This document shows, one piece after another, positions 488-42,113 of a stretch of DNA of 64,000 nt. Source of the DNA: Prochlorococcus sp. MIT 1307 (GTDB taxonomy: Bacteria > Cyanobacteriota > Cyanobacteriia > PCC-6307 > Cyanobiaceae); NCBI RefSeq assembly GCF_034092395.1, contig NZ_CP139301.1:1674001-1738000 (forward strand). Reading direction: 5' to 3'. The notes under the pieces were generated by a model. It worked only from the letters and a program-made list of their open reading frames with translations, was not told the origin of the DNA and searched no databases. Numbering within the stretch: position 1 is the stretch's first letter; every line of letters starts with the position of its first letter. The position numbers were made by a program, and so were the translations under genes.

Positions 488-743
488 CATTCTCAGCCTC
501 TTATTTCTATTCTATTTCAATCAAGGTTCTATTACTAATAACGAACAGATCGCAACTGAAAGAAAAAACTTCTCTATTCCTAATAAAAATTCTCTTTTGA
601 GAAATTGAGTCACGGCAACCCAAGGACGTCAAAGATGAGTTCTTGGCTGTTTGCGCACTTTGTGAAATACCTACAACTTCGCGCATTAACTGTCTAAATA
701 AAGAGCACATCCAAAAACTGATCGATTATCACCAGAACTCAAA

Positions 744-950
744 ATGTTTTGGACGCCCTACGCTGATTGGATTTATGTAGTTGTGAGCCTGACAGGGCTC
801 TTGTTCATTACTTGGATGGTGCTTAGACCTCCCAGTCGATACCATCGTCACCTTCATCGAATTCTGATAGGCGACCTTTTATTTATAGGTAGTGATGCAC
901 GCTGTCTGGATCGAAAAACGCGAGGTAGAGAAAGATCATGGTCAGGCTGA
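744..950 (+). CDS. Possible small membrane protein
   Basis: This is a 68-codon reading frame. Residues 10-27 form a plausible transmembrane helix (IYVVVSLTGLLFITWMVL), followed by a basic stretch. The last third overlaps the end of the convergent HTTM gene and looks less protein-like. No good Shine-Dalgarno sequence precedes the ATG. It may be a truncated small gene or chance. The stretch 488-743 holds no other gene I can support. Confidence 0.28.
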   Translation: MFWTPYADWIYVVVSLTGLLFITWMVLRPPSRYHRHLHRILIGDLLFIGSDARCLDRKTRGRERSWSG

Positions 951-7518: not shown

Positions 7519-7692
7519 TTATTGTTCGACATCAATGCTTTCATAGTAGGGACGATCTACGTAGTCAGCATCTGAGCAGTACATATCTCCGTAGATCTCC
7601 TTTAGTAATTCATAGGCATCGTCGTAGTTGTCGAAGCCCTGAGAGGTAATGGGATCCTCTTCTCCGGCGTCTGAATTGATCAGGTATCTCAT
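7519..7692 (-). CDS. 57-aa acidic protein, copy A of a duplicated family
   Basis: This short frame gives MRYLINSDAGEEDPITSQG followed by FDNYDDAYELLKEIYGDMY, then CSDADYVDRPYYESIDVEQ. It is acidic and rich in Tyr and Asp, with no signal or membrane segment. Residues 1-45 are encoded inside the perfect 276-bp direct repeat and are identical to copy B at 9525. Only the last dozen residues differ. Degenerate relatives occur at about 12190 and 22319. Identical upstream DNA means identical promoters. Function is unknown. Confidence 0.65.
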   Translation of the reverse strand: MRYLINSDAGEEDPITSQGFDNYDDAYELLKEIYGDMYCSDADYVDRPYYESIDVEQ

Positions 7693-7832
7693 TCCAGCTT
7701 TAATCTTTCCCCGTGTGGATCTGTCCGAAGAGCTTCTCTATACGTAGTTGAATTGCATACATCTAAGTTTTGTCAAAGAAAGACTTTCGCCTTTGCTGTT
7801 TTTGATGGTGATAGCAGCTCATAAAGCTGTAA
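7557..7832. repeat. 276-bp perfect direct repeat, copy 1
   Basis: Every base from 7557 to 7832 matches 9563-9838 at a constant offset of 2006 bp. The repeat holds the upstream region and the first 45 codons of the 57-aa gene. Recombination between copies would delete 2006 bp, including the hli gene and one copy of the inverted repeat. Confidence 0.95.
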
Positions 7833-8513: not shown

Positions 8514-8600
8514 AAGAAAACCCGCCAAAGGCGGGCTCTTGGAGATCATGAGCAAGTGTTGCCTTGTTTCCACTGCTCGGAGAATCTCATCTCCTCACTT
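8514..8600 (-). ncRNA. yfr2: Yfr2-family small RNA, left copy
   Basis: Read on the minus strand, an outer GGAGAT/ATCTCC stem encloses a hairpin. Its loop carries GGAAACAAGGCAACA, the GGAAACA-type repeat characteristic of cyanobacterial Yfr2. It ends with the terminator CCCGCC-TTT-GGCGGG plus TTTT. A TTGCCA/TAAAAA promoter precedes it. The 5' end is estimated from the -10 position. Near the 5' end GTGAGGAG is complementary to CUCCUCAC of the sRNA Yfr1. It is transcribed away from the 11-kb segment. Confidence 0.8.
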
Positions 8601-8647
8601 CAGGTATTTTTACCTAATTAGTTAATTTTGGCAAGCCCTCTAGCTCA

Positions 8648-8693
8648 TAAAAAAAGGCCCTTGCGAAACGCGCCGGACCTGGGTGATGGGGAA
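8648..8693 (-). ncRNA. Candidate short RNA B (left copy)
   Basis: A TTGATT-17 bp-TAGAAA promoter predicts a very short transcript that starts about TTCCCCATCACCC. It ends in a strong terminator, AGGTCC/GGGCCT stem with seven T residues. It has the same direction as Yfr2 and lies just upstream of it. Its CCCCATCACCC is perfectly complementary to the motif in candidate RNA A. Existence as a transcript is inferred. Confidence 0.45.
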
Positions 8694-8784
8694 CCTGTTT
8701 TCTAAGAGAGATTGAGCTCAAAATCAACCCCCACAAGTAGTGTTTTTTCTGATCGGTTGTATAAGTCACACTATAAATAGCGTG

Positions 8785-8891
8785 TATCTACCGATGACAA
8801 ATCGCTTGACAGTGACTAGTGTCATCCAAGTGGCCGGGTGATGGGGATCAAACGGTCTTATGAAGCCTCTTCTGATCAAGAGGCTTTTTTA
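8785..8891 (+). ncRNA. Candidate small RNA A (left copy)
   Basis: On the plus strand a run of local hairpins (GATGACA/TGTCATC and CTTGACA/TGTC..CAAG) leads to GGGTGATGGGG at 8836-8846. The terminator AAGCCTCTT/AAGAGGCTT plus T6 then ends at 8890. No short protein frame explains this block. The 5' end is a guess based on a TATAAA box at 8772. RNA A and RNA B diverge and share an 11-nt complementary motif. Confidence 0.4.
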
Positions 8892-9524
8892 TTGTGTGAT
8901 GACTTTTCCTAATGCAGGTGCAACCACCCTGCAGAAATATTGAATTCACTTAATTCAGAACAAACTAGGTTCTAACTAGAGCTTTCGTTCTGGTTACCCA
9001 AGTATTTGGCCTTATTTTCAAATCTTCTAAATTAGCGCTGTCGAAAGCAGCAGCATTATTGGCTTTTGACGCCCAAGGATCAACTTCTTAAATATGCTTC
9101 TAGGCTATGCCTCCATCGACATGGCTGCCACCCTGCATCGATTTCTGCGATATGGGCCCTTAGGCAGTTGGCAGCAAAGTTACTGATAAAAGGGTTTGAA
9201 TATGTCTAGGTCTTCATGGCTTAAAGATTGCATGCTGGCGAGAAAGAGTAGAGATAAAAGATCATGGGTAATAAGCTCATAGAAGCTAAGGGCTTCCTTA
9301 TCTTCTCGTTAGAATTTCCCAGCATAGATTCCTAGAGATTGTGCAGATTCATTGTTATTAATGGCTTTTAACTGTTCATTAGCCATTAGTTAATTTCGCT
9401 TATTTGCTTGGTATAACTAGTGTTTAAAGGATTAGAGTGAAATCAGAGTAACTACAGTTCTAAATAAAAAGTATCAAGCTGGTTGGACAGGTATTCTGCA
9501 TGTATTGATGATCACCCAAATCGT
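8892..9524. other. Gap with no supported gene
   Basis: These 633 bases between the inverted repeat and the second 57-aa gene have no convincing frame on either strand, no tRNA and no clear terminator. Confidence 0.5.
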
Positions 9525-9698
9525 TCAATCTTTTAGCTCAATGATCTCGTAGTAAAGAGGAGCTACGTAGTCAGCATCTGAGCAGTACATATCTCCGTAG
9601 ATCTCCTTTAGTAATTCATAGGCATCGTCGTAGTTGTCGAAGCCCTGAGAGGTAATGGGATCCTCTTCTCCGGCGTCTGAATTGATCAGGTATCTCAT
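9525..9698 (-). CDS. 57-aa acidic protein, copy B
   Basis: Residues 1-45 are identical to the protein at 7519 because they lie in the perfect direct repeat. The C-terminus then switches to DADYVAPLYYEIIELKD. Both versions have exactly 57 residues although their final dozen codons differ, which argues that both are functional proteins. Composition is acidic and Tyr-rich. A decayed tyrosine recombinase lies just upstream of its promoter region. Confidence 0.65.
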   Translation of the reverse strand: MRYLINSDAGEEDPITSQGFDNYDDAYELLKEIYGDMYCSDADYVAPLYYEIIELKD

Positions 9699-9838
9699 TC
9701 CAGCTTTAATCTTTCCCCGTGTGGATCTGTCCGAAGAGCTTCTCTATACGTAGTTGAATTGCATACATCTAAGTTTTGTCAAAGAAAGACTTTCGCCTTT
9801 GCTGTTTTTGATGGTGATAGCAGCTCATAAAGCTGTAA
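9563..9838. repeat. 276-bp perfect direct repeat, copy 2
   Basis: This is identical to 7557-7832. The left boundary is inside the 57-aa gene and the right boundary is 140 bp upstream of its start codon. It abuts the remnant of a recombinase gene. Confidence 0.95.
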
Positions 9839-9932
9839 CCCAAGGAAGAGCAGTCCCATTAGGACCAGAACCGAATATGGATCACCAAGCACTAAATTTC
9901 GGCCTTTCTGTGTAATTCCGTTCTAGCTGTTG

Positions 9933-10607
9933 TCAGACTCTCTGAATTTGACCCATAGTTGCCTTCTCTCCAATGAATGTATTCAGATCCTCTGGTGGCA
10001 GCCAACTTCTATTAGCCCCATTCTTAAAGGCAAAGCGTAGGAATTCCGCTGCGTATTGGATCCGGAGTCGTCGGCTTGCTGAGCCAGGCTCTCCCCCATG
10101 ACGTTCAACAAGGGTTTTTAAAACCGAGTAGCCACTTGATACAGAAGTTTCGCCAGTGAGGATAAGCAATGTGCGGTCAATAGGAGTTCGGTAGTTTCGG
10201 TTCCAAACTCGTGATCCTTTCTTCCCATTACTTGTTTTATGCGATTTGAATTTTCTAGCTAGTTGTTCCCAGTCGAGTGCACCATTTAATCCAGACTCGT
10301 TATTTTGTTTCACTAGCTCATATGCTTCTGCTAGGCCCTTTCCTTGAGACTTCATTATTAGCGAAATGTCTGTGGAGATTTTCAATATCCATCCTGCACT
10401 TGTGCCTACCCATGGAACAAAATCTGGATTGTTCTTGGCCTTTGGCCCAAGAACAATGCTGGTTCTGTTGCCATCTTCAAAACGAACTGTCAGCTGAACC
10501 TTTTGAATAAGACCTTTCCCTATGCCTCGGACCATCCATCCTTCGCCACATGCCTGTCGAATTTCTTCGCGCAGGGAGGTGATCCATTTTGAAGGCTTAT
10601 CAGGCAT
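9933..10607 (-). pseudogene. Tyrosine recombinase N-terminal fragment
   Basis: This 224-aa frame resembles the front half of integrases found in marine picocyanobacteria. It has an arm-type N-terminus (WITSLREEI...CGEGWMVRG, then VQLTVRFEDGNRTSIVLG). A core-binding segment follows (DWEQLARKFKSHKT, DRTLLILTGETSVSSGYSVL, ERHGGEPGSASRRLRIQYAAEFLRF split here for brevity). It stops after the core-binding domain. The catalytic domain with the Arg-His-Arg-Tyr residues is missing, and I found no continuation in other frames downstream. It is probably a relic of an integrative element. Confidence 0.65.
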
Positions 10608-10650
10608 TATTTTTATTGAATACTAGACAGGAGTAGTAGTAGGTCTTTCA

Positions 10651-10791
10651 TTAGCTATCCAATCTTTCTGCATAGTCTCTTAAAACCTCTGCTATTTTGT
10701 GTGGCGGTATTTCTTGCTGATATTCCTTGCATAACTCAAAGAACTTGTCTAGAAATTCCTTCATAGGACTTGGTCTCTTTTCTTTAGTCAT
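10651..10791 (-). CDS. 46-aa protein upstream of the recombinase relic
   Basis: This small frame reads MTKEKRPSPMKEFLDKFFEL followed by CKEYQQEIPPHKIAEVLRDY. It is charged and helical. It is co-oriented with the recombinase fragment, 43 bp upstream of its start, so the two may once have formed an operon. Position beside an integrase would suit a small accessory DNA-binding protein. No motif proves this. Confidence 0.45.
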   Translation of the reverse strand: MTKEKRPSPMKEFLDKFFELCKEYQQEIPPHKIAEVLRDYAERLDS

Positions 10792-10928
10792 TTGAGCCTT
10801 AAAAGTGTGTACAGAGTGTGAACGGATTTTGTGACTTCCTTGAAACTGTTTTCATTGAGTCAAATGCACTGGTTCATTAGCTAGCAGTTAACCGCCTGTT
10901 GAGCCATCGGATCTCAGAGAAAAGTGTT

Positions 10929-10964
10929 GGTTTGAATAAAGTTTGAATAAACCCTCGATTTCAG
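10929..10964. repeat. 36-bp motif, second copy
   Basis: This matches 2636-2671 at about 30 of 36 positions, keeping GGTTTGAATA and CCCTCGAT. It lies directly beside the cupin pseudogene, as the first copy lies beside a possible cupin remnant. Confidence 0.4.
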
Positions 10965-10980
10965 TGTCTGCATTGATTGA

Positions 10981-11185
10981 CTAGTTACCAAAACGATAGT
11001 GCTTACGAACTGTTTTATGCACTTCTCACTTGCAAGACATTCCAGCAGGAAAAACAACTAGATCACCGACTCCAAATCTCAGAGGCTGACTCCATCAGGA
11101 GTAACGATCACATCTCCTTTGATTAGTAAGCAAGCTTCCTGAGAGTTATATGTCCAAGTGAATGTAGTTGGATCACAAGTCTATA
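10981..11185 (-). pseudogene. Small cupin gene, inactivated
   Basis: The minus strand encodes a recognisable single-domain cupin of the DUF861 type: PTTFTWTYNSQEACLLIKGD, VIVTPDGVSL, then a TGA stop with a frameshift. It continues with FGVGDLVVFPAGMSC, another stop where Trp is expected, and VHKTVRKHYRFGN before TAG at 10981. At least two disabling changes are visible. Intact members are about 90-100 aa beta-barrel proteins of unknown substrate. Confidence 0.7.
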
Positions 11186-11406
11186 TATGCCATTGCTAGA
11201 TCCTTAGCTAGTTGATTATGCATTTGGCAGGAGGAGGTGATTTAGATTGACAACTTCTGCGCTTAGAGCTCAAGCTCTTTCTACCTATTTTTAGTAATTT
11301 AATTAGTTGATTTCAGTAAAAGCCAAACATCGTTCCGCCTATTTTGACTAGTCCATCTAGATAAACTTGAGTATTATTTTGTTGTATTTTTTGTGTGAGA
11401 AATCAA

Positions 11407-12099
11407 GTGTCATTAAGAAAGAGCTTGCTTACGGCAAGCATTGTTTGCTCTTGTGTAGCTACTCCAGTTTTCGCTGATGTGTATTCTGCAGGCCAATCAG
11501 TAGAAGATGATAAAGGCTTTTACGGGGTACTTTCTGTAGGTATTGGTGATATCGATGGAACCAAGTGGGAATCAACTATTGGCGGGACAAAATATGGTGG
11601 TAAGGCACCTGTTGATGCAGGCTTCTCAGGGGAAGTAGGCATTGGATATGACTTTGGTGCGTGGCGTACTGATTTGACTTATGAGAATGGAGGTGGTGAT
11701 TTAGGTGATTGTACAGAAACTAAAGTTACAGGAACTAATTGCTCATCAACTAGTGGAGAGGTCGAAACTAACAGCTTTATGATTAATGCCTACTACGATA
11801 TAGATACTAATTCTAAATGGGAGCCTTACGTCGGAGCAGGAATTGGCACCACTAATTTTGATGTGGAAAACTTTACGGTTGGTGGCACAAAATATAAACT
11901 TGGTGATGATGATAGTACTACGTATCAATTAAAAGCAGGAGTAACTCATCCTGTTAGTGACAAGATGGATCTATTTGGAGAAGCAGCTTATAAAATTTAT
12001 GATGATATAGAAACTTCTACTAACGTTGCAGGAGTGAAATTTAAGGTGAAAGACAGTACAGAGTGGGTAGCTAAATTAGGACTACGCTATATGTTCTAA
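11407..12099 (+). CDS. Outer-membrane beta-barrel protein, copy 1
   Basis: This 230-aa protein has a signal peptide (LLTASIVCSCVATPVFA) and alternating amphipathic strands ending in LGLRYMF, the C-terminal aromatic signature of outer-membrane barrels. It fits the OMP_b-brl/OmpW-like group of eight-strand barrels. I choose GTG 11407 rather than GTG 11395 because the paralog at 27797 starts at the matching codon (MSLKKGLL) and both then have 230 aa. The leader contains GUGUGAG overlapping the ribosome-binding region, complementary to the Yfr1 core. Role is probably a small channel or surface protein. Confidence 0.82.
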   Translation: MSLRKSLLTASIVCSCVATPVFADVYSAGQSVEDDKGFYGVLSVGIGDIDGTKWESTIGGTKYGGKAPVDAGFSGEVGIGYDFGAWRTDLTYENGGGDLGDCTETKVTGTNCSSTSGEVETNSFMINAYYDIDTNSKWEPYVGAGIGTTNFDVENFTVGGTKYKLGDDDSTTYQLKAGVTHPVSDKMDLFGEAAYKIYDDIETSTNVAGVKFKVKDSTEWVAKLGLRYMF

Positions 12100-12128
12100 A
12101 CTTAGCCAAATTTAATTTTTAAATTGTA

Positions 12129-12160
12129 AAAAGGCGATATTTTTATATCGTCCTTTTTTA
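12129..12160 (+). terminator. Terminator after barrel gene copy 1
   Basis: AAAGGCGATAT pairs with ATATCGTCCTTT around TTTT, followed by further T residues. The GGCGATA core is shared with the hairpin behind the second barrel gene. Confidence 0.8.
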
Positions 12161-12184
12161 TTTTTAGATTTTACTTTCTATTTA

Positions 12185-12312
12185 TTGCCTTGGCGCAATG
12201 TTGTCATAGCTAGGGTCTCATAGTAGCCGATATCAGAGCAGCATATAAATCTGATACACCAGGAAGATGTGTCCACTTAGAGTAAGCAGCGACTATGGAT
12301 CACAAACATTAA
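12185..12312 (-). pseudogene. Degenerate relative of the 57-aa family
   Basis: The minus strand reads FICCSDIGYYETLAM, similar to the YCSDADY..YYE end of the 57-aa proteins. The flanking stretch with TATGGATCACAAACATTAAAT matches the DNA beside copy B (TATGGATCACCAAGCACTAAAT). No complete frame or start codon remains. Confidence 0.4.
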
Positions 12313-12397
12313 ATCTCTAGCTTTTTGAGCAATTCTTTGCTATCTGCCTTTCGTAAATCTTGATCCATTGGAAGAAGATCAAGTTATGTCGAAAAAG

Positions 12398-12949
12398 TTA
12401 TTTAAGACTTTTCGTAATAACTGCGTTTAGGAAAGCATGATTCAACTTTTCTAAAGGATCATTAGACCACAACACTAGAGCAGTCCTCATTGCGCAAGAT
12501 CCATGCCTATAAGCCTGTGTCATTTCTTGAGCTGTTAAAGAATGTGTACCTAATAATATTGTGAAGACTAGTTCGGGAGAGGCATGAGGGAGCTTCTTGA
12601 GCACCAATGATAATTCTTGCAAGGCCTTCTCGATAGTCAGTCCCTTTTCTTTGCAGTGATATTCAAATTCTTCCTTAGCAACTTCGCCATATTTCTTTGC
12701 TCCATGATCAGTAAAGATAACTCCGATGTTTTGTTTTAATGTAGCTGCACTCTTCTTTAAACCAAGGCTTTCCTCTATCTTTATGAGCCTCTCTTCAAGT
12801 AGAGCATCATTATCTAATTTGTGATTGTTGTCTAGTTTCTCAGTGACATATTGCGTCAAGGTTTTTCCTTCCTGTATCGCTTGTTTTTTTAGCTTTAACA
12901 AGAGCTCAGGTTCAATATTTATATTTAGCTGCGTTCGACCTTTCGCCAT
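12398..12949 (-). CDS. Ribbon-helix-helix protein, copy 1
   Basis: This 183-aa protein begins with a ribbon-helix-helix DNA-binding domain: strand RTQLNINIEPELLLKLKKQA and helix GKTLTQYVTEKL. A coiled-coil linker follows (LLEERLIKIEESLGL), then a C-terminal helical domain with GAKKYGEVAKEEFEYH and LLGTHSLTAQEM. The gene at 40077 has the same architecture with low identity. Such proteins usually repress their own or neighbouring genes. No toxin partner is adjacent, so I do not call it an antitoxin. Confidence 0.65.
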   Translation of the reverse strand: MAKGRTQLNINIEPELLLKLKKQAIQEGKTLTQYVTEKLDNNHKLDNDALLEERLIKIEESLGLKKSAATLKQNIGVIFTDHGAKKYGEVAKEEFEYHCKEKGLTIEKALQELSLVLKKLPHASPELVFTILLGTHSLTAQEMTQAYRHGSCAMRTALVLWSNDPLEKLNHAFLNAVITKSLK

Positions 12950-13481
12950 TTTCGTGGTTGACTATAAGTTAACTATATCTTTTTAAGAGGATAATTGCAG
13001 CTTCACTCAAACTCTTGTAAATTAATTCCTCTCTCCCTTTGAATTTCTTTGCTTGAACTGGCTATTGTTGAGACATGTCAGCCCTGGCAGCCAGTATGGA
13101 TGATCTTGTTTGCTGGAAAGGTTATCGATAGATCTAGATTAGTTAGTGGTAAGACTTTTGGAAGAAAGGTGTAGGGATTAAATTTGTTTCTTATAAGAAA
13201 GAGAATAAGTGCTTTGAAATAAATAGTTTTTACCTGGCTATGACTTCATGAGCGAATATGAGATTCTTGTTTAGCTATTGGAATAAAAGGTTTAGAGAGC
13301 TTTTGGGAGTTAGAACCTTGTTGGAATTAGAGCAAGCTTTCCTTTCTATTATTTTGACTAAATTATCTTCTTTGTGCTTTTAGTATTTCCAGTGTTTAGG
13401 GAGTATTAGGGGTAGCTTTAACCTATTGCCTTGATTGATTCCTTAATGAATGAGGGAAAGGCCGTCTGTGGAGACATCAGT
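12950..13481. other. Gap with no supported gene
   Basis: These 532 bases carry no convincing frame, RNA gene or terminator. They are AT-rich and presumably hold the promoter of the ribbon-helix-helix gene at the left edge. Confidence 0.5.
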
Positions 13482-14342
13482 TCAGGTTGAGGCATCTTGC
13501 TTGATTATTTCCCAGGCTTCTAAGGCTGTATCTGCATATTGAAAGAGCTTTAGGTGATCATCGGCAATCAGCCCAGAATCTGCAAGTAGTTGAAAATCAA
13601 TAGCTTTAGACCAATATTCTCGCCCAAAAAGAATTATAGGGATATTGTTCTTCATTCCAGTCTGACGAAGTGTTAAAAGCTCAAATAGTTCATCAAATGT
13701 TCCAAAGCCACCAGGAAAAAATACGGCTGCAATTGAACGCATTACAAAGTGAATTTTGCGCAACGCAAAATAATTAAATTTAAAACAAAGTCCAGGTGTG
13801 ATAAATGGATTTGGATTTTGTTCATTAGGGATACTGATGTTTAAGCCTATTGATTTGCAGTCTGCATCAAAAGCACCTCTATTAGCAGCTTCCATAATGC
13901 CAGGACCACCACCAGTAACAATTACATGAGAACGGCACTCCTTTATTTGATTTTCTCTAGACACAATTCTAGAAAACTCTCTTGCAGATTAATAGTAATG
14001 AGACATTAAATATGCTTTTTCTAACCTATCTTTTTCCCTTTGTAGTTGACTTGAATCCGTATTTTCTTCTAACATTCTACATGCTTCTTCTAGTTTTCGT
14101 TTTGCAGACAATCTGTCTAAGATGTTTGCTCCTCCGAATACAATAATAGTTGATAATATCTTTTCATTCTCGAGTATTTGTTCTGGCTTGCTAATCTCAA
14201 GCAACATGCGAACTCCTCGCATCTCATCGCTATTCAATAACTCTAAATCCTGATGAGCTAAATGATAAGAATTGGAACTGAGTATTAATTTCAGATTCTG
14301 TTTTGCAATTTCATTATCATCACTGCGTTCGTAGTGTTTCAC
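13482..14342 (-). pseudogene. LOG-family (lysine decarboxylase-like) gene split by a stop codon
   Basis: Two fragments, 117 and 160 codons, lie in the same frame, separated by one TAA at 13989-13991. Together they form a 286-codon LOG-family gene. The N-part has STIIVFGGANI and ends YLMSHYY. The C-part continues AREFSRIVSRENQ, VTGGGPGIMEAANRGA and the nucleotide-binding signature PGGFGTFDELFE. LOG-family enzymes are phosphoribohydrolases acting on nucleoside monophosphates. The C-fragment could start at GTG 13964 but would lack the first strand of the Rossmann fold. Probably inactive, unless the stop is an error. Confidence 0.8.
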
Positions 14343-14401
14343 CGTTGTCCTCTAATAGCACTTCGCCTCTTAGAAAGGATAGTAGATATAGTTCTTATTT
14401 G

Positions 14402-14728
14402 TCATAGATCTTGCGAAACAAGATCACACTTGGTGAGTTCTGGAGTCGCAAGTCGATCAAGAATTCTTGCCATGTCCACTGCTGAGAGTTCTCCATCGCT
14501 AGACCACTTCAGTGTCGTTTTTCGCTGAGCAGGGATTTGTTCTTTTGTTGCTGTCAGTAGATTATTTTTTCTCTCTAAGTCTTCTAAATACGCCTTCGCA
14601 GAATGTAAGTCACCTGAGTAAATACAACGACTTCTTGAGCAAGATCGAAAGATTCGACCAGAATCCCCTTTAAAACAAGTAATTGATCCACCTTGAGAAC
14701 TTATGAATAAAGGATTTTTTGTGATCAC
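14402..14728 (-). CDS. Hypothetical protein, GTG start coupled to upstream gene
   Basis: This 108-aa protein starts MITKNPLFISSQGGSITCF and has a Ser/Arg-rich segment (FRSCSRSRCIYSGDLHSAKA), then a helix and a Thr/Asp-rich end. The GTG start overlaps the stop of the 52-aa gene at 14725 by GTGA, and GGAGG lies just upstream within that gene. The pair is therefore almost certainly translated together. I recognise no domain. Confidence 0.6.
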   Translation of the reverse strand: MITKNPLFISSQGGSITCFKGDSGRIFRSCSRSRCIYSGDLHSAKAYLEDLERKNNLLTATKEQIPAQRKTTLKWSSDGELSAVDMARILDRLATPELTKCDLVSQDL

Positions 14729-14883
14729 TTTTCCTCCTTTTTTAGGTGAATATCAATACATTGAGTTAAGCAATGGATACCATCATCACTTAGAGAGCAG
14801 GCAGTAATGCATTCAAAATACTCGTCAATAGCATCGTGTTCGATGTTAACTTCATCCATTAAATGGACGCTTTTGGTAATCAT
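14725..14883 (-). CDS. 52-aa acidic protein, first gene of a coupled pair
   Basis: The frame starts MITKSVHLMDEVNIEHDAID and ends LKKEEK. It contains four cysteines in ECITACSLSDDG and HCLTQCID, an arrangement that could bind metal or form disulfides. The product is acidic and has no membrane segment. Its last codons contain the Shine-Dalgarno AAAAGGAGG for the next gene, and the stop overlaps that gene's start. Function unknown. Confidence 0.55.
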   Translation of the reverse strand: MITKSVHLMDEVNIEHDAIDEYFECITACSLSDDGIHCLTQCIDIHLKKEEK

Positions 14884-15021
14884 AAGTTGCACCTCTTTGA
14901 TTGGCTTACGAAACTAGCATTGAATCTATATTTGGGGTCATTATTATACGAAAGATAAAGTACCTATTTTCTCTTGCAAGTGGAAAAGAAGATTATAAAA
15001 AATAATATAGAGTCCTTCTTA

Positions 15022-15079
15022 AGTAATAAAAACTGACCCTTCTTTGTCCCCAAAGAAAGAAAGGCCAGTTTTTATTACT
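15022..15079. terminator. Bidirectional hairpin terminator
   Basis: AGTAATAAAAACTG pairs perfectly with CAGTTTTTATTACT, with an inner TTCTTTG/CAAAGAA stem. It has T-runs in both directions. It would terminate the minus-strand locus at 15080-15340. Confidence 0.75.
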
Positions 15080-15340
15080 CGTCTTTTAGAGAAGCTATTT
15101 GCTATTGATCGCCTGGGGCCAAGGATCTAGGTGTAAGGCTGATAAAGGCTCCATTGAGGGCACCTAAACGATGCAGAGGAGTGTCATTAATGCTTTAGAG
15201 GCCATCTATGACCAGCCCACTTGTAAAATGAGACTGTTGGAGCAGGGACCAGAAGTCAATTCGCTTCTATTTAATACTCAGGCGGAGTATCGATCATGAA
15301 CCCCTCCGGCTGACATTGGGGTAATTCTGTAGCAACCGCT
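15080..15340 (-). other. Conserved mini-locus 1: strong RBS, 8-codon peptide, PAPTVS block
   Basis: On the minus strand a GGAGGGG Shine-Dalgarno precedes ATG 15297 and a peptide MIDTPPEY with stop at 15271. The same frame resumes as LLVPAPTVS. Further on a second frame reads HRLGALNGAFISL and LTPRSLAPGDQ. A paralogous locus at 49370-49650 keeps the ribosome-binding site, DTPPE, PAPTVS, RLGALKG, the PRNMAPGGQ-like end and a terminator hairpin. Each copy has different stops. It is either a decayed small-gene family or a leader/structured RNA. Confidence 0.45.
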
Positions 15341-15955
15341 ACAAAAAGACAATGCGCCTTAATGCTTATTTCTTCTGACTTCTTTTGGCGATAAGGTTTG
15401 GCCTTTTATTGTTAATCGTGGAATGAAAACAGTTTTTTCCTTGAAGAGGCATTCACCATGGCTACTTCTAAGTTGTGATCCTGAAATTGAATATCTTTGT
15501 TCAATTTTGTTGCCAGAATTTTACTGGAATAGATATTTAAAAATCGCTAAGGCCTTTAGGTATTAATGGCTGTTTAATTTCTATTGAAAGGAGGTATATA
15601 TAGTCGTGTCAATAGATTTGGGCGCATTTTGTGGTATTGATTTTGAGCAGACTTTGGTGTCATCATTGCTTATAAGACAAATATTGTGTTTAAAAAGGGG
15701 CATAACATTGCCTTTATTAATTAAGACAAGGCCTTGCTTTATTTGCATATTCCAAATACTTGATAAAACTTTTTGTGGCGAATTTTTGTAATGGTATTTA
15801 TCTCTCTGGCGCTTTCGTCCAACACCTTTAATATTCTTAGACGAATATTTGCTCTGAAACTGACAGGAAGAAGAGACGAAATCTCCATCAATATTGCTTG
15901 ATTACATCAAGATAATTTGATTAGATTAATATGTGCCAATGCTGTTGTGGCTCTC
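15341..15955. other. Long leader region of pstS
   Basis: These 615 bases contain no frame I trust. A plus-strand frame at 15606-15791 has no domain and weak composition. The region should include the pstS promoter. I could not identify a convincing Pho box. Confidence 0.45.
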
Positions 15956-16945
15956 ATGACCTTCATAAAGAAGGGTCTTCTGCTCTCTTCCACCCTTGCT
16001 CTTGGTACAGGTATAACCACTGCCTGTGTCTCATCGGGTATATCTTCAAAAATCAACGGGGCGGGTGCAACGTTCCCAGCGAAGATTTATACCCGTTGGT
16101 TTTCCGATTTAGCAAAGACCGGTGGTCCCAAAGTGAACTACCAAGCAGTGGGATCTGGATCTGGGCGTAAAGCTTTTATCGATCAATCTGTGGATTTTGG
16201 TGCTTCTGATGATCCCATGAAAGCCATGGATATTGCCAAAGTCACTCGTGGCTTGGTTCAAATTCCTATGGTTGGGGGCACTATTGCTTTTGGCTATAAC
16301 AATCCAGATTGCGATCTCAAGCTGAGCCAAAAGCAAGCTGTAAGAGTTGCTATGGGCAAAGTTACTAATTGGAGTGAATTGAATTGCCCTGCAGGCAAAC
16401 TCCTCTGGGTTCATCGTTCAGATGGCTCAGGCACAACTAAGGTCTTCACGAACTCAATGCAGGCGTTCTCTAGTGAATGGACATTAGGAACAGGTAAATC
16501 GGTGGCCTGGCCCGAAGGAGTTGGAGGGAAAGGTAACGCCGGTGTTGCTGGAGTGATCCAGCAGACTCCAGGTGCTATTGGTTATCTCAATCAGTCTTAT
16601 ATCAGAGGCAACATTAAAGCGGCAGCATTGCAAAACCTTTCTGGAGAATTTTTAAAGCCAAGCACTAAAGCAGGTGCAATTGCTCTCAATGGAATCAGAC
16701 TGGATCAAAACCTCGCTGGAAAAAATCCAAATCCAACAGCTCGTGGTGCTTATCCGATTGCAACTTTGACTTGGATATTGGGGTATGAAACTGGTAATGG
16801 CTCTAAAACAAAAGCTATTAAAGATGCTTTGAATTACTTATTGAGCGATGATGTTCAAAATAAAGCTCCTAGTTTGGGATTTGTTCCACTTAAAGGGAAC
16901 ATCCTTAATAAAGCTCGTTTTGCTGTGGAGAGAATCAGCGAATAG
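15956..16945 (+). CDS. pstS: Phosphate-binding protein PstS
   Basis: This 329-aa periplasmic solute-binding protein of the high-affinity phosphate ABC transporter has a signal peptide ending GITTAC, which may be a lipoprotein cleavage site. The phosphate-site motifs are INGAGATFPAKIY, GSGSGRKAFI, DFGASDDPM and VHRSDGSGTTKVF. ATG 15956 is preferred over 15917 because the signal peptide then begins MTFIKKG. The rest of the transporter (pstCAB) is not in the window. The next gene is an arsR-type regulator, a linkage that fits arsenate entering through phosphate systems. Confidence 0.93.
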   Translation: MTFIKKGLLLSSTLALGTGITTACVSSGISSKINGAGATFPAKIYTRWFSDLAKTGGPKVNYQAVGSGSGRKAFIDQSVDFGASDDPMKAMDIAKVTRGLVQIPMVGGTIAFGYNNPDCDLKLSQKQAVRVAMGKVTNWSELNCPAGKLLWVHRSDGSGTTKVFTNSMQAFSSEWTLGTGKSVAWPEGVGGKGNAGVAGVIQQTPGAIGYLNQSYIRGNIKAAALQNLSGEFLKPSTKAGAIALNGIRLDQNLAGKNPNPTARGAYPIATLTWILGYETGNGSKTKAIKDALNYLLSDDVQNKAPSLGFVPLKGNILNKARFAVERISE

Positions 16946-16963
16946 TAAAAAGTTTTTAGATTA

Positions 16964-17293
16964 ATGGGATTAGTATTTGCTAAAAAAGATGTGCTTGCAA
17001 CAAGTCAAGCAAGTGGGCTTCTCAAGGCTTTAGCCGATCCACTTCGCATGAAAGTCATTGAGTCTTTGTCAGAAGGAGAGTGTTGTGTTTGTGATCTGAT
17101 GAAAAAGACAAGTCTTGCGCAATCACGCTTGTCATTTCATCTTAAGGTTCTTAAAGATTCTGGATTAATTACAGATCGACAAAGTGGCCGTTGGGTTTAC
17201 TACAAATTGGATCTTGAAGCGTTCCAATTGCTAGAAGATTGGATAGCAGATCTGAAACACACTTGCCATAGTGCAGCAAATACTAGTCCTTGA
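16964..17293 (+). CDS. arsR: ArsR-family metalloid-sensing repressor
   Basis: This 109-aa winged-helix repressor has ALADPLRMKVIESL (helix 1-2), the metal-binding ECCVCDLM motif (Cys40, 41 and 43; the family form is ELCVCDL), recognition helix SRLSFHLKVLKDSGL and wing DRQSGRWVYYKL. In the family, arsenite binding to these cysteines releases the repressor from DNA. It begins 18 bp after pstS and is probably co-transcribed. No efflux or arsenate reductase gene is nearby, so its target may be the pst/arsenic genes elsewhere or its own operon. Confidence 0.88.
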   Translation: MGLVFAKKDVLATSQASGLLKALADPLRMKVIESLSEGECCVCDLMKKTSLAQSRLSFHLKVLKDSGLITDRQSGRWVYYKLDLEAFQLLEDWIADLKHTCHSAANTSP

Positions 17294-17777
17294 ATATCAA
17301 TACTTTTCCACCTTTTAAAGTAATTAGCGACTTTCTAATTATTCATAGGTTCTATCCATTCCACCACCACTGTCCATGGCAAGCTCTTTGGTGATGACAA
17401 ATATTGTCTGAAAAGCACTTAAGACTTAATAGCTAAGGATATTTAGATCTAAAGCTATGTGCAGGATACGTTCTTCAAAATCTCGAATGATTTACGGAGA
17501 TGCATATCTATAACGAGATCCAGGTTGTCATAGCTAAAATTCCGCAATCTGTCTACTTAATAGATTCATAAGAAGAATTATCCTTGCAGGTTAATTGTAG
17601 TTGAAATGCATTCTCTCAAATTAACTCGGTGGCTTTGGGATAAGAACTTTTCAGATGTTCTTATGATTTACATCATTGGTTTATAGACCTAAGAGAGCTT
17701 TTATATTCAATGATTAAGAAGCTTATAGAGTAATTTGATGCCTATTATAATTAATTTCTAAAATAAGAGTATTCAAT
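17294..17777. other. Gap with no supported gene
   Basis: These 484 bases have no credible gene. A short TTTACGGAGATGCATATCT resembles the IYGDMY codons of the 57-aa family, too little to call. Confidence 0.5.
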
Positions 17778-18614
17778 ATGCATAAGTTCTTCAAAAAGGT
17801 TGCTTCGAATCTTATCCCTCCAGGAGTGTTTAAGCTGTATCAATTCCTCGCCTCAGGGAAAAGTAGATATACATATAAAGGCATTTTTAATACCTTTGAA
17901 GAGGCTAAGAATGCATCTGGACAGGATTCACCCTATCTAAATAAAGATTTTGATAAAGCAGCTGTTGATGAAACATACTCAGTGCTTTCCAAATTGAATC
18001 TCTACGGAAGGAGTGATCAACGTAAAGGGTTATTGCTGGAAATGATTTTAAAACTAAGATATCCCCATCGAAAGGCTACCATCCTTGATTATGGTGGTGG
18101 AAATTACCCTCAATATGCCTACCTTTCAAGAGAAATACAAGATATAACAAATACAATTATAATAGACAGAAAAGATCTCATACAACTAATTAGGCAAGAT
18201 TCTAGGTTCTCTAAATTGCCAGCTAATTTAAAGTTCTTAGATTTAAATGAATTTGAAGCTGCTAAGCTAAATATAGATATAGTATATTTTGGATCTACTG
18301 TTCAGTATATAAGTGACTTAATTTCGAATATTGGCAGCCTTTCTCAGAAAGGCTGCCAATATGTAATCATTTGCGATAGCACTTTTACTGAAAAGGATCA
18401 TGATATATATGTTCTGCAACAGAATGAGCCGCCTTCTGTCTTTCCAAATAAATGGCATTCAAGGAAAGACCTTATACAAAACATGAATAAAATTGGTTAT
18501 GACTTAATTCTTGAAAATCGCAGAAGACATAATTACAAGCATGATTCGATTAGGCCAGAAGATTTTTTTTATCAAACATTTATATTTGAGAGATGTAAGA
18601 CTGACAATGTCTAA
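17778..18614 (+). CDS. TIGR04325-type putative methyltransferase
   Basis: This 278-aa protein has the SAM-binding-like motif ATILDYGGGNYPQYA near residue 110. It also shows DIVYFGSTVQYI and HSRKDLIQNMNKIGYDLI, matching the layout of the TIGR04325 (LIC12133) family that occurs in polysaccharide and glycan clusters. The N-terminal YTYKGIFNTFEEAKNAS segment is also typical. It stands alone here with very AT-rich codons, which suggests acquisition. No partner glycosyltransferases are present, so its substrate cannot be inferred. Confidence 0.72.
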   Translation: MHKFFKKVASNLIPPGVFKLYQFLASGKSRYTYKGIFNTFEEAKNASGQDSPYLNKDFDKAAVDETYSVLSKLNLYGRSDQRKGLLLEMILKLRYPHRKATILDYGGGNYPQYAYLSREIQDITNTIIIDRKDLIQLIRQDSRFSKLPANLKFLDLNEFEAAKLNIDIVYFGSTVQYISDLISNIGSLSQKGCQYVIICDSTFTEKDHDIYVLQQNEPPSVFPNKWHSRKDLIQNMNKIGYDLILENRRRHNYKHDSIRPEDFFYQTFIFERCKTDNV

Positions 18615-18787
18615 ATTACTAGACTATATTTTTTATTGAATAGAGGGAAAGGAAAGTGGTACGTCTTTCATCATTTATTACTATTCTAGACAAGCAAAAT
18701 CATTAACTAAGCGTTTTTCTTGGAAGTCTTCTGTAACAATGCCTTCTTAGTAAGCATTAAGGAATGGAATTAGCAAGAGGCTTATTA

Positions 18788-19225
18788 TTATTGCCTTAGA
18801 GACTCTTTCTGTCGAATCTGGGGTAGATTCAAACCCTTAGATTTGCTTGGAATTTTACTTGCTAATTGAGTTAGATAATTATCAAGCTCTTCTTTAGTAC
18901 CTGTAAAGTTTTTTCCACATTTATCAAAAATATTATTGGATAAGGAAGCAGATAAATCTTCTCTTGGAGAAGACATTAGTTCATTCATAACAGGGGTCAA
19001 GAAAAAGCCTTGTGCAAGTTGAGGTGACAGTTGAGCAGCAGCACTTGCTCCGGATTCCTCAGACGTCATCCCTTTGGCAATAGACTTGCAAAATTTCTCT
19101 GCAAACTTCTGACTTATATCTGAAACAGCTGGTGACAAATCTGTAGCTGATCCAAATGATCTAATCGGAGTAAGAAAAAATGCTGTTGCGAAAAGACAGG
19201 CAAGTAGTAAAAGTAAACGACGCAT
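18788..19225 (-). CDS. Secreted hypothetical protein
   Basis: This 145-aa protein has a clear signal peptide (LLLLLACLFATAFFL, cleavage around SFGSA) and a soluble domain with two cysteines (FCKSIAKG, DKCGKNF) likely to form a disulfide. A helical C-terminus follows, with PSKSKG. A terminator-like hairpin ends its U-run directly at the start codon, so transcription may be attenuated. Domain and function unknown. Confidence 0.65.
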   Translation of the reverse strand: MRRLLLLLACLFATAFFLTPIRSFGSATDLSPAVSDISQKFAEKFCKSIAKGMTSEESGASAAAQLSPQLAQGFFLTPVMNELMSSPREDLSASLSNNIFDKCGKNFTGTKEELDNYLTQLASKIPSKSKGLNLPQIRQKESLRQ

Positions 19226-19254
19226 AAAAAACGGCCTGTGCAGACTCAGACCGT
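19226..19254 (-). promoter_or_regulatory. Attenuator-like hairpin abutting a start codon
   Basis: On the minus strand ACGGTCTG pairs with CAGGCCGT around AGTCTG and is followed at once by TTTTTT and ATG. Just upstream CAGGTA/TACCTG forms another stem that shares bases with it, allowing alternative folding. This layout suits transcription attenuation or a riboswitch-like leader. Confidence 0.45.
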
Positions 19255-19642
19255 ATCAGGTATCTCACTACCTGTCTGGCATTTAACCGGTTTTACCAAT
19301 CAGGTGCCCTCGTAAGGAATACCCAAAAATATTAAGTAGGTCGAAAGCGTTGAGTTTGTTTGCTCGCCACCAGCACCAACAAAATTTTCTAAAATGAATG
19401 AACTACATCGAAACGTTAAGCTCGGCGAGGTGTCAGTGACTGTTTTGCTTTCGGTTGCTCGATTGGCCAGAGGCAGTAAACCAAGACATGACGGAAAGAA
19501 AGAACATATTTGCTTACATATTCACTCTTCTCTTTTTAATTAAAATCCTTTTCTAAACATACTTAGAGCACTGAATCAGTATCCCGTTGGACATACGAGT
19601 GAGTTTTCTTTCTGCTATGAATGACTAGTTTTTAAAAAAGTC

Positions 19643-19915
19643 ATGCTCTACATTCAGCACTGGAAGATCAAAGCTGGTTATCACCAGAAAAGTGCAGAAA
19701 AGTTTTTAGCGACTGGCGCTCCTTATCCAGGCGTTAAATCATTTTCTCGTTATCATTCACCAGGTTCATTAGAAGGTTGGATTGTTGTTGACTCAGATGA
19801 TCCAAAAGCTCTTTATGAGCATGCCGCTGAATGGGCTGAGTTTCTGGATTGGGACACAACTCCAGTGCTAACTGACGAAGAGGCTGGTCCTATTTGCGCA
19901 AAGGTCTACAGCTAA
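19643..19915 (+). CDS. DUF3303 family protein
   Basis: This 90-aa small alpha/beta protein reads MLYIQHWKIKAGYHQKSAEK, with GVKSFSRYHSPGSLEGW and WAEFLDWDTTPVLTDEEAG. This pattern matches DUF3303, a ferredoxin-like fold family frequent in marine picocyanobacteria. It is complete, monocistronic and close to the inverted repeat. No catalytic residues are known for the family. Confidence 0.8.
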   Translation: MLYIQHWKIKAGYHQKSAEKFLATGAPYPGVKSFSRYHSPGSLEGWIVVDSDDPKALYEHAAEWAEFLDWDTTPVLTDEEAGPICAKVYS

Positions 19916-19983
19916 ACAGCTAATTGACTTGATTGAGAAGTTTTTTGGCAGCTCTCCTTCTCTCATAGAGATTTGATAAGTAC

Positions 19984-20090
19984 TAAAAAAGCCTCTTGAT
20001 CAGAAGAGGCTTCATAAGACCGTTTGATCCCCATCACCCGGCCACTTGGATGACACTAGTCACTGTCAAGCGATTTGTCATCGGTAGATA
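19984..20090 (-). ncRNA. Candidate small RNA A (right copy)
   Basis: This is identical to the unit at 8785-8891 but on the minus strand, ending in the AAGCCTCTT/AAGAGGCTT terminator at 19985. It carries GGGTGATGGGG (minus strand, 20029-20039). The 5' end is uncertain. Confidence 0.4.
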
Positions 20091-20181
20091 CACGCTATTT
20101 ATAGTGTGACTTATACAACCGATCAGAAAAAACACTACTTGTGGGGGTTGATTTTGAGCTCAATCTCTCTTAGAAAACAGG

Positions 20182-20227
20182 TTCCCCATCACCCAGGTCC
20201 GGCGCGTTTCGCAAGGGCCTTTTTTTA
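20182..20227 (+). ncRNA. Candidate short RNA B (right copy)
   Basis: The promoter is TTGATT at 20148 and TAGAAA at 20171 with 17-bp spacing. The predicted transcript begins with CCCCATCACCC (20184-20194) and runs straight into the AGGTCC/GGGCCT terminator with seven T residues. Confidence 0.45.
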
Positions 20228-20274
20228 TGAGCTAGAGGGCTTGCCAAAATTAACTAATTAGGTAAAAATACCTG

Positions 20275-20361
20275 AAGTGAGGAGATGAGATTCTCCGAGC
20301 AGTGGAAACAAGGCAACACTTGCTCATGATCTCCAAGAGCCCGCCTTTGGCGGGTTTTCTT
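20275..20361 (+). ncRNA. yfr2: Yfr2-family small RNA, right copy
   Basis: This is identical to the left copy. A hairpin with loop GGAAACAAGGCAACA sits inside an outer GGAGAT/ATCTCC stem. The CCCGCC/GGCGGG terminator follows, with promoter TTGCCA (20241) and TAAAAA (20263). Flanking DNA differs on both sides, so both copies could be expressed from identical promoters. GTGAGGAG near the 5' end can pair with Yfr1. Confidence 0.8.
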
Positions 20362-24709: not shown

Positions 24710-24995
24710 AAAGTATTAATTTTAATAACACCTCCGTAGATAAGATTATTTAACTTCTGTATTCCATTAGCACAGGATGTGTTTATGACATGTCAATGAT
24801 CTACTAGCGAAAAGGAGAATAATGAAATAAAAAGCTAGCCAATTTTTTTTTTGCTCTACCCACTAACAGTTAATTAACTTTTCTTGTTATGCTGGTTTAG
24901 TAGCAAATGCTACTAAAACGTTCGACTCTCTTTCGAGAGCCGCAGCTCGACTCAAGCCATGGAACGGGGACTTGAGCTAAAACGGAGAAAGATCA

Positions 24996-26267: not shown

Positions 26268-26750
26268 ATGACCAAAATTTGCGGATATATTGCAGCATTG
26301 CTGTTTTGCTTCTTACTTCAACTAAGTCCTAGCCCTGCAATGGCATGTGTTGAGGGTTTGTCGTGGGGAATGGACCTTTTGAGTGTAGAGAGACATATTG
26401 GTCAGCCTTTAGTACCTATTCAAGGAGGGATAAATAATGATTTGTTTGAAGTTAGAGATTTCAAAATGAGCGGACTACCTGTAAAAAGCCTTCGTGTTCG
26501 TGTCGAAGATAAAAATGGTTTACAACAACTTGCTTATGAAATGGAATATAAAAATATGACTGAAGTCTTGGCAGGTTTAAGAAAGCGTTTTGGCCCACCA
26601 GTAGGTACTAGCCTTGATGTTGATGGAGGATACCCTCAACAACAATGGATTTGGCATACTGGAGAAGATGTGATTACCGCTATTAAGAGTGATAAAAGCC
26701 CCTTTCTTCTTTCTTATAGACCATCACTTCTAGACCCTTCGTTTCTTTAA
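26268..26750 (+). CDS. Secreted picocyanobacterial protein (intact copy)
   Basis: This 160-aa protein has a signal peptide (YIAALLFCFLLQLSPSPAMA) and a mature start ACVEGLSWGMDL. The domain contains VEDKNGLQQLAYEMEYKNM, GLRKRFGPPVGTS and QQQWIWHTGEDVITAIKSD. A paralog at window position 2-487 is interrupted by a stop at the Trp of LSWGMD. The domain has a small alpha/beta look but is not one I recognise. Likely periplasmic. Confidence 0.72.
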   Translation: MTKICGYIAALLFCFLLQLSPSPAMACVEGLSWGMDLLSVERHIGQPLVPIQGGINNDLFEVRDFKMSGLPVKSLRVRVEDKNGLQQLAYEMEYKNMTEVLAGLRKRFGPPVGTSLDVDGGYPQQQWIWHTGEDVITAIKSDKSPFLLSYRPSLLDPSFL

Positions 26751-41591: not shown

Positions 41592-42113
41592 ATGATGAAA
41601 CTAATTGCGCTAATTGCATTTCTTTATTTGCTCACGGAATTGTTGAGCAGGTCAACAGAAAATAACAACGCGAATAGTGATAATGATCAACCACCTAGCC
41701 TTATTGATTTCTTGAGTTCAATTGCATCGCTAATCAGTCCAAAAGAAACTAAGCCGTTTCAAGACTCTATGGAAGAGGAAGTCATAGAAGTCGAGGCTAA
41801 AGTTTCTGCAGAGTCTGGTGCTACTAAGCTGTTTCAAGACTCTATGGAAGAGGAAGTCATAGAAGTCGAGGCTAAAGTTTCTGCAGAGTCTGGTGCTACT
41901 AAGCCGTTTCAAGACTCTATGGAAGAGGAAGTCATAGAAGTCGAGGCTAAAGTTTCTGCAGAGTCTGGTGCTACTAAGCCGTTTCAAGACTCTATGGAAG
42001 AGATCGAGCCTCCTGAAGATGAATTAGATCTTGAAGAACAGAAAATTGACTCTGCCACTATCAGTAGTGTTGACATTAAGGAATGGACTAAGAGAAACCA
42101 AAAGAAGAAATAG
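41592..42113 (+). CDS. Membrane-anchored acidic repeat protein
   Basis: This 173-aa protein has an N-terminal hydrophobic helix (MKLIALIAFLYLLTELL) and a Ser-rich spacer. A 25-residue acidic unit follows, KPFQDSMEEEVIEVEAKVSA plus ESGAT, repeated three times with a partial fourth, and the protein ends in a basic tail RNQKKK. The DNA repeat is nearly perfect, so copy number can change by slippage. The repeats probably form a rod or linker exposed from the membrane. Function unknown. Confidence 0.65.
   Translation: MMKLIALIAFLYLLTELLSRSTENNNANSDNDQPPSLIDFLSSIASLISPKETKPFQDSMEEEVIEVEAKVSAESGATKLFQDSMEEEVIEVEAKVSAESGATKPFQDSMEEEVIEVEAKVSAESGATKPFQDSMEEIEPPEDELDLEEQKIDSATISSVDIKEWTKRNQKKK
41751..42002 (+). 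repeat. 75-bp in-frame tandem repeat, 3.4 copies
   Basis: Units start at 41751, 41826 and 41901, with a partial one at 41976. The only change I see is a single base (Pro to Leu codon) at the start of unit 2. Such identity means recent expansion. Confidence 0.93.

Follow-up and report, generated by a model that had tools for sequence, protein, structure and literature searches.

The 378-nt inverted repeat that encloses an 11-kb segment of this Prochlorococcus genome is real, recent and made of small RNA (sRNA) genes, and it is best read as a sign that sRNA cassettes continue to be copied locally within the islands of Prochlorococcus genomes. Each arm is probably a copy of an sRNA cassette that is bounded by terminators, is present in multiple copies and was recently copied or homogenised in a variable island. 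Local duplication of such cassettes supplies homology for recombination, and recombination between the arms may already have taken place. In the hypervariable islands of Prochlorococcus it is often unclear which homology serves for rearrangement. The sRNA cassettes described here are a source of recent, nearly identical repeats in direct and inverted orientation, and paired cassettes could enable the cell to invert or reshuffle whatever genes lie between them.

The window (the whole stretch of 64,000 nucleotides analysed, 38% GC) comes from a genome that is a single contig of 2,032,419 bp. The nearest named relatives of its pstS gene are Prochlorococcus single-cell genomes. Pairwise comparison confirmed that the arms (Table 1) are exact reverse complements, 100% identical over 378 nt and separated by 11,092 nt. 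The identity ends abruptly on both sides of each arm, and both limits of homology coincide with terminator T-tracts. Because the arms are the sole two full-length copies in the genome, the ten further matches being partial and 73-90% identical, a chance match can be excluded. No protein family or conserved open reading frame (ORF) was found in the arms, which bears out the initial annotation on this point as well. Long identical inverted arms, as would be looked for around a segment inverted by homologous recombination, are thus present (378 nt, 100%). Long identical inverted repeats are substrates for homologous recombination in inversions between rRNA operons, insertion sequence (IS) copies or prophages. 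The repeat described here is alike in being long, identical and inverted but differs from all three in being a short sRNA cassette in a variable island.

Table 1. Coordinates of the repeat arms, their predicted RNAs and the neighbouring features in the window
Feature	Position	Strand	Basis or remark
Left arm (Yfr2 + L/R unit cassette)	8514..8891	+	Exact 378-nt inverted repeat
Right arm (exact reverse complement of left arm)	19984..20361	-	Exact 378-nt inverted repeat
Yfr2 sRNA, left copy, outward	8514..8601	-	RF01701 match 8538-8604, 47.1 bits; predicted start
Yfr2 sRNA, right copy, outward	20274..20361	+	RF01701 match 20271-20337; mirrors left copy
L RNA (predicted), left copy, outward, with UCCCCAUCACCC and intrinsic terminator	8649..8725	-	26-copy alignment A1, consensus fold, model R1; predicted start
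L RNA (predicted), right copy, outward	20150..20226	+	R1 match at 20124-20226
R RNA (predicted), left copy, inward, with GGGUGAUGGGGA in stem-loop and intrinsic terminator	8829..8890	+	25-copy alignment A2, consensus fold, model R2; predicted start
R RNA (predicted), right copy, inward	19985..20046	-	R2 match
Putative divergent promoter/regulatory region common to L and R, with conserved CACTATAAATAGCGTGTATCTACCGATGACAAATC block	8726..8828	.	Conserved across alignments; predicted regulatory role
Putative shared divergent promoter region, right copy	20047..20149	.	Mirrors left copy
11.1-kb segment between the arms	8892..19983	.	Gene content in the rows marked segment gene
Direct repeat D1, just outside left arm	7532..7832	+	97.7% to 9538-9838; 57-aa ORF on - strand
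Direct repeat D2, inside segment	9538..9838	+	97.7% to D1
OMP_b-brl outer-membrane barrel	11395-12099		Segment gene
RHH-like gene	12398-12949	-	Segment gene
Frameshifted LOG-family relic	13482-14342	-	Segment gene
pstS	15917-16945		Segment gene
arsR	16964-17293		Segment gene
TIGR04325 methyltransferase	17778-18614		Segment gene
Conserved 145-aa gene	18788-19225	-	Segment gene
DUF3303 gene	19643-19915		Segment gene

Each arm contains an outward-pointing Yfr2 gene (Rfam RF01701, Cyano-1) with a covariance-model score of 47.1 bits against a cut-off of 41, so the Yfr2-like RNA proposed earlier for each arm stands. Both copies show the 5' GUGAGGAG motif and the apical GGAAACA loop when aligned to the model, and a terminator is visible. 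They resemble the rest of the Yfr2 family in these motifs, in scoring above the gathering threshold and in being multi-copy at unconserved loci, and members of the family are expected to be expressed as sRNAs of roughly 80-90 nt, but here Yfr2 shares a cassette, perfectly duplicated in inverted orientation, with a tandemly placed divergent RNA pair. This pair occupies a 242-bp unit beside Yfr2 (arm positions 137-378) that looks like two divergent, terminated RNAs, termed L (outward) and R (inward). An alignment of about 25 copies of the unit resolves two terminator-bounded halves read divergently and, between them, a conserved upstream region common to both; an imperfect palindrome is also present between L and R. 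By starts placed at -10-like motifs, the terminator-bounded lengths would be about 77 nt for L and 62 nt for R, and we infer from sequence that both are transcribed. The initial annotation had described one terminated unit pointing inward in each arm. This unit is R, but the outward L with its own terminator had been missed, and with it the third predicted RNA of the arm; nor had the arm been recognised as a dispersed multi-copy cassette.

The 12-nt motif UCCCCAUCACCC in L is the exact reverse complement of GGGUGAUGGGGA in R, and nearly all copies keep a 10-nt core of the motif (L, 25 of 26; R, 23 of 25). Consensus folding of L and R supports the terminators and yields little covariation because the motifs are almost invariant. 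The energy of the L:R duplex (-42.7) is approximately 2.8 s.d. below that of shuffled sequences, does not beat the best shuffle, and by itself does not prove pairing. Yfr1/Yfr10 and Yfr2 are interacting sRNAs with conserved complementary single-stranded motifs (PMC6778093). By analogy L and R, which are likewise two predicted sRNAs with conserved complementary motifs, may pair with each other, although they are divergent neighbours and carry a different motif. Since the core in this genome lies mostly within units (15 of 20 sites; the control pattern, read backwards, has 5), L-R pairing is directly testable.

L/R units are absent from Rfam, and the pair is a candidate for a conserved multi-copy RNA outside that database. 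Covariance models detect nine L, six strong R and one weaker R in this genome, and most of these copies cluster at 89-140 kb. Of 81 genomes sampled from the family, 30 have L, and these are mainly genomes of 1.4-2 Mb; G017 is among the genomes carrying unit copies. A small ORF that by eye resembles the N-terminal domain of IF2 is repeatedly convergent to L terminators (window 634-830, L046 3418-3613 and L047 3482-3678). Picocyanobacteria, some Prochlorococcus among them, have multiple copies of the non-coding RNA Yfr103, which occurs in WH7803 and MIT9313, measures 290-328 nt in CC9605 and has a conserved imperfect palindrome reported upstream (PMC5069720). The unit is likewise multi-copy and has an imperfect palindrome, but L and R measure only about 60-80 nt and the WH7803 genome (G040) has no match with the L model R1 or the R model R2, and the unit is therefore probably not Yfr103. 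A tentative and rather doubtful proposal is that the units belong to an unnamed Prochlorococcus family of divergent sRNA pairs, with perfectly complementary conserved 12-nt motifs and often beside Yfr2, that multiplies in genomic islands and whose near-identical copies act as recombination homology that inverts or reshuffles island genes. If true, this would tie RNA regulation to genome plasticity.

Over most of the unit, other copies in the genome share 71-81% identity with the arms, and partial matches to the L half go up to 90%. Because the arms show zero differences over 378 mostly unconserved non-coding positions, their identity is well supported as the result of recent copying or conversion and not of selection alone. 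The recent duplication or gene conversion suggested in the initial annotation therefore holds, and near-identical local pairs also occur in relatives. Unit-containing direct pairs are found in G000 (at 138.7 and 140.3 kb, 98.3% over 405), G005 (840 bp, 99.9%; L058 9420-10259 and 10997-11836) and G065 (96.7% over 364), while inverted pairs are found in G001 (95.9% over 270) and G004, where arms of about 93% identity surround a 2.9-kb segment (L059 1299-2021 and 4946-5966) and the unit has been largely lost from one arm. Near-identical local pairs are thus direct in three genomes and inverted in three, including the present one, although the loci were picked because they hold a unit and the survey shows recurrence, not rate.

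These pairs suggest that the cassette (Yfr2 plus the divergent L/R pair) duplicates locally, in direct and inverted orientation, across the Prochlorococcus lineage. Its copies would supply portable homology for RecA-type recombination, which would homogenise copies by conversion, remove or duplicate the sequence that separates direct copies and invert the stretch that separates inverted ones. The two inverted arms of the window probably come from a recent copying event; the recombination route, like any present-day inversion, is presumed. Identical inverted ends enclosing cargo could also belong to a dedicated invertible or mobile element, either one with a site-specific invertase or a composite transposon, with the arms as its ends. 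However, no recombinase, transposase or invertase was recognised in the segment or beside the arms, the arms are made of sRNA genes that are found singly elsewhere, and the three other near-identical local pairs that are direct do not fit such an element. This explanation is largely refuted and has next to no probability. An assembly artefact, in which the orientation of the middle segment or the second copy is wrong, is very improbable too. A perfect 378-bp repeat does exceed short-read length, but the genome is a single contig, the distinct flanks of the arms are individually explicable from other copies, and similar pairs are present in independently assembled genomes.

Each arm keeps a natural flank, and it does so on opposite sides, the left arm on its outer and the right arm on its inner side. 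Most other Yfr2 copies continue after the terminator with GTGYCTA or a close variant; the left arm has GTGCCTA and the right arm differs. Past the R terminator, the inner flank of the right arm matches the sequence that naturally lies downstream of three other units, with a score attained by 0 of 500 shuffles, and the inner flank of the left arm corresponds to sequence on the 3' side of an unrelated gene that also occurs in AG-463-F15 and at another place in this genome. This mosaic, which is built on short stretches of 7 nt and about 16-19 nt, points to a possible earlier recombination between the two arms through inversion. Conversion between older copies fits it almost as well, and independent flank replacement could also produce it.

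Gene conversion without inversion has slightly less than an even chance of being correct. Under this explanation both loci already had a unit and one overwrote the other over the entire shared stretch while the orientation stayed constant. Both loci may indeed be old, since the right inner flank is a natural unit flank and the left outer flank a natural Yfr2 flank, and islands often carry units. Some diverged remnants are usual after conversion, however, and here the identity tract covers the whole shared homology and ends exactly where the flanks diverge; conversion would also require the flank to have been replaced separately in each arm, on opposite sides. In another possible history, the cassette was recently duplicated in inverted orientation and the arms then recombined to invert the segment, so that the orientation seen today would be derived. 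This history predicts exactly the pattern in which each arm has an ancestral flank on one side and a foreign flank on the other, with the sides opposite in the two arms. In G005 (L056), a cassette of ancestral type has both of its natural flanks. Such a history is a substantial possibility, though one to be doubted sooner than accepted.

The comparison of orientation and copy number in related strains that had been proposed earlier could be made with G003, the only one among the relatives searched in which a single contig carries both flanking genes (nirA and an epimerase, 95% and 79% protein identity). No arm is present in G003 at the locus between nirA and the epimerase, and the content there is scrambled; the flanking genes are 7.2 kb apart versus 14.4 kb in the present genome. 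Three shared elements lie in reversed order in G003, two keep their strand, and the 18788-19225 gene is inverted relative to the present genome. The G003 order (18788, 12398, 10991) is the order obtained when the inversion is undone, so that all three elements have the predicted order and one of the three, the 18788 gene, the predicted orientation. Duplication with subsequent inversion fits this order, but two of the three elements lack the predicted orientation, and the 10991-11253 element is dispersed and may not be orthologous. The direct repeats D1 and D2 (301 bp, 97.7% identical) straddle the left arm; the alignment with G003 is interrupted within this repeat, which is another sign of repeat-mediated rearrangement. 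No second orientation of the segment was observed with one genome per species compared, and viral contigs searched with the left outer-junction pattern gave no match. Inversion of the segment, which the initial annotation considered plausible, thus remains mechanistically plausible and is indirectly supported by the mosaic flanks but is unproven, the alternative orientation not having been seen.

The segment between the arms contains pstS-arsR, a barrel gene and a relic, as had been reported. The LOG/TIGR00730-family gene at 13482-14342 is split into two ORFs and is considered a relic here because it is continuous for about 297 codons in relatives (L053 and L070). At 15917-17293, arsR directly follows pstS, and in relatives 0.5-3.8 kb separates the two. 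The surroundings of the pstS-arsR pair differ in other relatives, and a synteny test through pstS in named relatives found the gene but no common neighbourhood around it. A 24-bp imperfect hairpin is located at 15022-15079, and the block around it (14411-15371) is also found between the inverted arms of G004 (L059), whose 2.9-kb segment holds a gene that by eye is OsmC-like. Elsewhere in the window, a tandem repeat of about 75 bp lies at 41748-42002 with copies approximately 99% identical, a stretch at 24-455, which lies over a 136-aa ORF, is duplicated at 26317-26748 (78% identical), and a Glutamine-II riboswitch (68.9 bits) is present at 24916-24976.
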